A DNA stretch of 64,000 nucleotides from positions 1-64,000 of the forward strand of contig JAJKFJ010022889.1 of assembly GCA_027382625.1 (NCBI GenBank). Reading direction: 5' to 3'. Origin of the DNA: Tetmemena sp. SeJ-2015. Taxonomy: Eukaryota > Ciliophora > Spirotrichea > Sporadotrichida > Oxytrichidae. How positions within the stretch are numbered: the first letter of the stretch is position 1; each line of letters begins with the position of its first letter. This document shows, in pieces, positions 11,582-12,039 of this stretch. The translations under genes were made by a program, and so were the position numbers. The notes under the pieces were generated by a model that saw nothing but the letters and a program-made list of their open reading frames with translations, did no database searches and was not told the DNA's origin.

Positions 11582-12039
11582 ATGGCAAGAACCAAGCAAA
11601 CCGCAAGAAAGAACACCGGTGGCAAAGCCCCCAGAAAGCACATCGCTCACAAGCAGGCCAAGAAGTCCTCTGCTGCCGCCGCCCCAGGTGGTGTCAAGAA
11701 GCCCCACAGATTCAGACCCGGCACCGTCGCTCTCAGAGAAATCAGAAGATTCCAAAAGAGCACTGAGCTCCTCATCAGAAAGCTTCCTTTCCAGAGACTC
11801 AAACAAATGTAATGTAACTGCACCATGATATTATTAGACTCGTGAGAGAGATTGCTTCTGAGTTCAAGAACGACCTCAGATTCCAGTCCTCCGCTGTCCT
11901 CGCCCTCCAGGAAGCCTCCGAGGCTTACCTCGTTGGACTCTTCGAAGACACCAACCTCTGCGCCATCCACGCCAAGAGAGTGACCATCATGCCCAAGGAC
12001 GTCCAGCTCGCCAGAAGAATCAGAGGTGAGAGATCTTGA
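11582..12039 (+). CDS. Divergent histone H3 variant, with one IES
   Basis: The frame starts [18 protein letters not shown] after Met and, with the 41 bp IES 11801-11841 removed, continues through KLPFQRLVREI to RIRGERS and TGA, about 138 codons. The histone fold ([37 protein letters not shown]) is nearly canonical. The tail is not: Ser10 is Asn, Thr22 is His, and two extra residues lie between Lys27 and Lys36 ([17 protein letters not shown]). Lys4, Lys9, Lys14, Lys18, Lys23, Lys27 and Lys36 are kept. Codons are rich in C, unlike neighbouring genes, as expected for a highly expressed gene. Spirotrichs are known to carry several H3 variants, some stage-specific in macronuclear development; whether this is one of those is inference. 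Confidence 0.95.
11801..11841. other. IES in histone H3, 41 bp, pointer AGACTC
   Basis: AGACTC at 11795-11800 repeats at 11836-11841. Excision of the A+T-rich segment plus one copy gives [12 protein letters not shown], the invariant H3 sequence. This is the clearest proof in the window that the DNA is the germline version. Confidence 0.95.

Follow-up and report, generated by a model that had tools for sequence, protein, structure and literature searches.

A short repeat-flanked insert in a histone H3 gene of Tetmemena sp. SeJ-2015 very probably represents a germline IES

A histone H3 gene in the window (the whole stretch of 64,000 nucleotides of Tetmemena sp. SeJ-2015 DNA that was analysed) is interrupted by a short insert. 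This raises the question of whether the insert is removed from the DNA, spliced from the RNA or never removed at all. The gene and its parts are the following.

11,582-12,039, forward strand: interrupted histone H3 gene, ending in a TGA stop
11,582-11,794, forward strand: H3 coding segment 1, codons 1-71 (MDS 1, repeat excluded); placed by sequence, translation and excision scoring
11,795-11,800, forward strand: first AGACTC copy of the direct repeat (putative pointer); from the sequence
11,801-11,835, forward strand: 35 bp of A+T-rich sequence between the AGACTC copies, the unique part of the insert (putative IES)
11,836-11,841, forward strand: second AGACTC copy of the direct repeat; from the sequence
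11,842-12,039, forward strand: H3 coding segment 2 (MDS 2 after the repeat), through the TGA stop; from the translation

An earlier note on this DNA had described a 6-bp pointer splitting H3, and AGACTC is indeed present at both of these places, the two copies being spaced by 41 bp with 35 bp in between. Translation on either side of the insert gave H3 residues 1-72 and 73-138, the pieces reading MARTKQ...KLPFQR and LVREIASEF...RIRGERS* with TGA at the end. When 41 bp (the 35 bp and one AGACTC) are taken out, a 417-bp coding sequence for a 138-residue H3 is obtained. This protein is 97% identical to the uninterrupted 138-residue H3 P0044, and P0051, P0052 and P0057 are further uninterrupted homologs of it. 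Loss of 47 bp instead of 41 drops the R-L codons of H3 as well. The somatic loss had been announced as 41 bp plus one pointer copy, which has to be corrected since the 41 bp already count one AGACTC and the unique part amounts to 35 bp. The latter has a G+C content of 25.7% vs 55.2% in the joined coding sequence, in agreement with the A+T richness claimed for the insert. As the non-coding flanks of the gene are also A+T-rich (35-36% G+C), the base composition of the insert alone says only that it is non-coding.

The excisions that were compared removed 6-90 bp, began no earlier than codon 41 and kept the frame open; the score was protein similarity alone, with two uninterrupted H3 proteins from the same genome and the database H3 P0044 as references. 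The 41-nt excision at AGACTC was the unique best of 2,500 distinct open products, and the runner-up, nine score units below, had no repeat. The chance of a flanking repeat of at least 6 bp at 41-bp spacing was 0.14% when random pieces of the window were put in the H3 coding sequence and 0.4% over positions scanned along the window or the region around it.

The H3 family was surveyed by a DNA search of the 146-Mb assembly, with 14 candidates scored, and by protein comparison. No near-identical IES-free copy of the window gene was found among the 14 candidates. A paralog 93% identical to the window H3 (contig C3835, 13,986-14,434) carries an insert at the same codons. In this gene, a 32-nt excision with an ACTC repeat was the unique best of 1,781, and the search for an open GT-AG option in the insert yielded none. 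The two genes differ by 11 synonymous and 2 nonsynonymous codons in 139 (stop included), and 403 of their 417 coding bases are identical. Their inserts, which measure 35 bp (window) and 28 bp (C3835) between the repeats, resemble each other no more than shuffled sequences do, 1,719 of 2,000 shuffles scoring as high in global and 1,676 of 2,000 in local alignment. Around the genes, blastn (E 1e-3, 1.5 kb on each side) aligned only 3 bases before and 1 base after the coding sequence. The left and right repeat copies read AGACTC/AAACTC in C3835 vs AGACTC/AGACTC in the window, a single substitution on the insert side.

The simplest reading of this pair is one old insert, whose sequence and pointer have since drifted. 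Independent gain of the two inserts at the same target was proposed because they are no more alike than shuffles while the coding DNA is nearly unchanged; we regard it as unlikely. A shared insert would mean that a single substitution has eroded the pointer from 6 bp to 4 bp, and independent gain would point to a recurrent insertion hot spot in H3. The same-site pair offers a small natural test of pointer erosion that is tolerated while the insert is still removed.

A third H3 gene (contig C3529) contains a 40-nt insert at another site, after ASE, with AATA in one of the two tied best of 3,097 placements. A divergent H3-like gene (L023, contig C3349, 111,893-112,218) holds two inserts: one of 28 nt with TTCC (one of two tied best placements, of 1,816) and an in-frame one of 12 nt with ACTT (one of two tied best placements, of 717). 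The 12-bp insert would be very short, if an IES. Uninterrupted copies were found on contigs C2549, C3233, C3569, C4000 and C3153, one C3153 copy having a frame fault. An H3-like gene on C2966 (L070) likewise appears broken. Divergent H3 genes also occur in head-to-head inverted pairs, three of them on two contigs (C3153, 28,296-29,313 and 36,914-37,937; C4000, 22,677-23,689).

The window insert could be a spliceosomal intron. Pairs of GT at 11,761-11,840 and AG up to 11,900 were tried: four leave the frame open and none of these four restores H3, and it is in this sense that the earlier statement that no GT-AG intron fits holds true. The closest option, GTAATG...TTATTAG at 11,809-11,837, would be removed from the RNA as 29 nt and leave H3 with four extra residues (QRL-KQI-LVREI). 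Such an intron has GT-AG ends and an open frame, like the three other open options, and its length is near that of the short introns of some spirotrichs, the main range in S. cf. sulcatum being 28-42 nt (PMC10901763). However, the four residues would fall within a part of H3 that ranks among its most conserved, and the C3835 paralog with its same-site insert yielded no open GT-AG option. The AGACTC repeat and the repeat excess at other inserts (see below) would be left unexplained. Furthermore, in the H3 gene of the same genome that was read as intron-containing (contig C3153, 25,602-26,178), the 166-nt insert has canonical ends (GTAAGT...TTTTAG) and sits at another site; GT-AG is found there in one of two tied placements, with no repeat. 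PMC3918171 reports for Stylonychia a GT-AG intron in just one of its H3 variants. Splicing of the window insert is therefore considered very improbable.

Comparable inserts were analysed in tubulin genes. In the insert-free stretches of the alpha-tubulin gene of contig C1854, identity to PDB chain 6u0h_A was 95-98%, and the joined pieces align end to end with this chain (the hand-joined query lacked four residues where the first two pieces meet). The gene has three inserts, of 50, 69 and 50 nt. Their tied best placements include ones with ATT, GTCGAT and ACT, respectively, and none of the three has GT-AG; the 69-nt insert keeps the frame and contains no stop. Four inserts (a to d) were tested in the tubulin gene of contig C3185. 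Insert a (bases 1,579-1,618 of L051) is 36 nt long and has GT-AG and a GGTA repeat together, so that repeats do not cleanly separate the classes of inserts. Insert b (56 nt) has GT-AG in a tied best placement, insert c (37 nt) a CACAAT repeat and no GT-AG, and insert d (51 nt, in frame) a repeat of at most 2 bp. Insert a is, besides, a candidate for the overlap between introns and IESs discussed in PMC1805493.

Eight breaks of the window, H3 included, were analysed. Those outside H3 with an assigned repeat or with intron ends are the following.

43,448-43,551, forward strand: 104-nt break of the sortilin gene, with intron ends GTGAGT...TATAG and a repeat of AG only
45,029-45,064, forward strand: 30-bp in-frame insert (S2) of the sortilin/VPS10 gene, with AGATTG at 45,029 and 45,059
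52,048-52,081, forward strand: 28-bp insert of a T-type-like calcium channel gene, picked by eye, with TGATTA at 52,048 and 52,076
57,325-57,405, forward strand: 76-bp insert of a GH38 alpha-mannosidase gene, with TATTC at 57,325 and 57,401 in one of three tied best placements

A repeat-flanked insert without GT-AG fits four of the eight (H3, sortilin 45,029, GH38 57,325 and calcium channel 52,048); one has canonical intron ends, one is a possible 35-nt intron and two were placed in neither group. The placement of S2 at AGATTG is the third-best with a score of 503, two repeat-free placements of equal length scoring 509. The joined reading of the calcium channel matches PDB channels on both sides, the junction itself lying within a variable loop; since the repeat was already known when this case was picked, it enters none of the counts. 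At 43,448-43,551 the intron placement scores 68 vs 78 for the best placement without repeat or GT-AG, and the possible sortilin intron at 45,886-45,920 scores 145 vs 163 for the best. In the best-scoring placements of sortilin S1, S3, S4 and S5, the repeat is 0 or 1 bp and there is no GT-AG; the linkers that hold S3, S4 and S5 are poorly conserved, and for S5 a GT-AG option exists at a lower score. The best-scoring protein match is 49% identical for sortilin and 26% identical for GH38, where it comes from Moneuplotes crassus. The claim that the frame breaks found throughout the window interrupt the DNA itself agrees with the four fitting breaks and is too general as a statement on all of them, given the intron ends at 43,448-43,551 and the one possible intron; likewise, what had been said to be shown by the window is rather indicated by its sequence. 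Codon statistics were dropped as an aid to gene finding, the signal being weak.

Two of these genes contain internal resemblances. In the GH38 gene, a 109-nt direct repeat (57,813-57,921 and 58,043-58,151; 88% identical, 230 bp apart) has the same stretch encoded by both copies. It is similar to local duplications that have been connected with scrambled genes (PMC9797194), and one of the copies may represent a decayed MDS within an IES. In the calcium channel gene, a second, frame-shifted stretch at 48,900-49,300 resembles the preceding segment by eye, and a repeat finder set to at least 25 nt reported no DNA repeat there.

Flanking repeats were counted over ten inserts without GT-AG whose length is set by the protein: the H3 inserts of the window, C3835 and C3529, the three of tubulin C1854, c and d of C3185, sortilin S2 and GH38. 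The GT-AG inserts (C3153, 25,602; C3185 a and b) and the calcium channel were left out. Repeats of at least 4 bp were found in a best placement, in most inserts tied with others and not unique, for 6 of the 10 vs 0.57 expected (P ~4e-6 under a simple independence model). The other four comprise two with 3-bp repeats (T1 and T3 of C1854) and two with 2 bp or none, namely C3185 d (at most 2 bp) and sortilin S2 (none in either of its two best placements). Sortilin S1, S3, S4 and S5 had been kept out because their linkers fix the junction poorly; when they are added as misses, the count becomes 6/14 vs 0.66 expected (P ~1.5e-5). With the two later-run C3349 inserts, of 4 bp each, it is 8/16.

A decaying pseudogene could also leave a frame break and a direct repeat: a dead H3 copy would have gained 41 bp, with a duplication of the target site or one due to slippage, and never lost them. 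This is hard to reconcile with an H3 that is intact outside the insert and differs from C3835 mostly at synonymous positions, with a paralog "broken" at the same place, and with an alpha-tubulin gene (C1854) broken likewise three times and otherwise almost identical to a solved tubulin, and we judge it highly improbable. An assembly or sequencing artefact is scarcely credible even in a draft of 5,213 contigs, as read errors would hardly place 35 bp of A+T-rich sequence at a junction that fits the protein perfectly, and do so in two paralogs whose insert sequences differ.

The claim that the window is germline DNA is well supported. Its contig measures 218,032 bp, with several genes in the window, whereas spirotrich somatic assemblies have an N50 of about 1.7-3.7 kb (PMC9797194, PMC10901763). 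Moreover, a search of the assembly for DDE_3 transposases gave 150 matches among the 150 scored of 921 candidates, that is, at least 150 in the assembly.

An IES is the best reading, given that its excision restores H3 exactly, that none of the open GT-AG pairs does so, that the paralog has an insert at the same site and that flanking repeats are in excess. On this sequence evidence, positions 11,795-11,841 are very probably a short non-scrambled spirotrich IES in micronuclear (germline) DNA. As a new macronucleus develops, a precise deletion would take away 41 bp, made up of the 35 bp and one AGACTC; the other AGACTC would join the H3 segments and its R-L codons (AGA CTC) would be read once. 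The expected somatic product would be exactly 41 bp shorter, and not 41+6. That the removal takes place in the DNA, when it does so and by what machinery is our inference; in Oxytricha, transposases have been implicated and RNA templates guide the rearrangement (PMC12242761, PMC5513065).

As a short A+T-rich insert in a coding segment on a long germline contig, the H3 insert is like the non-scrambled IESs of Oxytricha, Tetmemena, Halteria and Strombidium, and AGACTC is like the spirotrich pointers described, which are direct repeats mostly below 10 bp with no single fixed sequence (PMC9797194, PMC10901763). At 41 bp, the insert is shorter than the median IES sizes of spirotrichs (73-180 bp), and AGACTC is half G+C vs the mostly AT-rich pointers reported (PMC10901763); nothing else stands out. 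Where IESs occupy homologous sites, the genes compared have mostly been paralogs within a single species (PMC10901763). The introns of spirotrich DNA polymerase alpha that are flanked by direct repeats (PMC1805493) also carry short repeats on either side of a non-coding insert, and C3185 a, with GT-AG and GGTA, can be likened to them; for the H3 insert, by contrast, none of the open GT-AG placements found restores the protein. Conversion between introns and IESs was proposed earlier (PMC9797194; PMC1805493).

Short non-coding inserts that are precisely excised from coding DNA also include the TA-bounded IESs of Paramecium and Euplotes. In contrast to that constant TA, the repeats found here are AGACTC, ACTC, AATA, GTCGAT, CACAAT and others. 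The pointers of E. vannus have a TA motif, like those of Paramecium (PMC10901763).

The H3 insert is a clear further example of a well-known process, the phenomenon itself being known. A literature search aimed at IESs in H3 showed, among the titles listed, none on an IES in an H3 gene, which is no proof of absence from print. Because H3 is so conserved, the junction is fixed to the base without somatic data, which makes this a good calibration case, both for the finding of IESs from germline sequence alone and for the separation of IESs from introns. If such an assembly were annotated with gene finders, histone and tubulin genes would come out as broken.

The coding sequences and contig ends bear signs of the host. 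In the H3 and tubulin genes, in-frame TAA and TAG stand where Gln is expected and TGA is the stop, which differs from Euplotes, where TGA is not a stop. C4A4 repeats are present in the assembly, contig ends included. Nine contigs (C298, C586, C672, C739, C770, C1030, C1301, C4311 and C4966) start at base 1 with such repeats; C298 measures 21 kb, and these could be germline chromosome ends or long somatic chromosomes.
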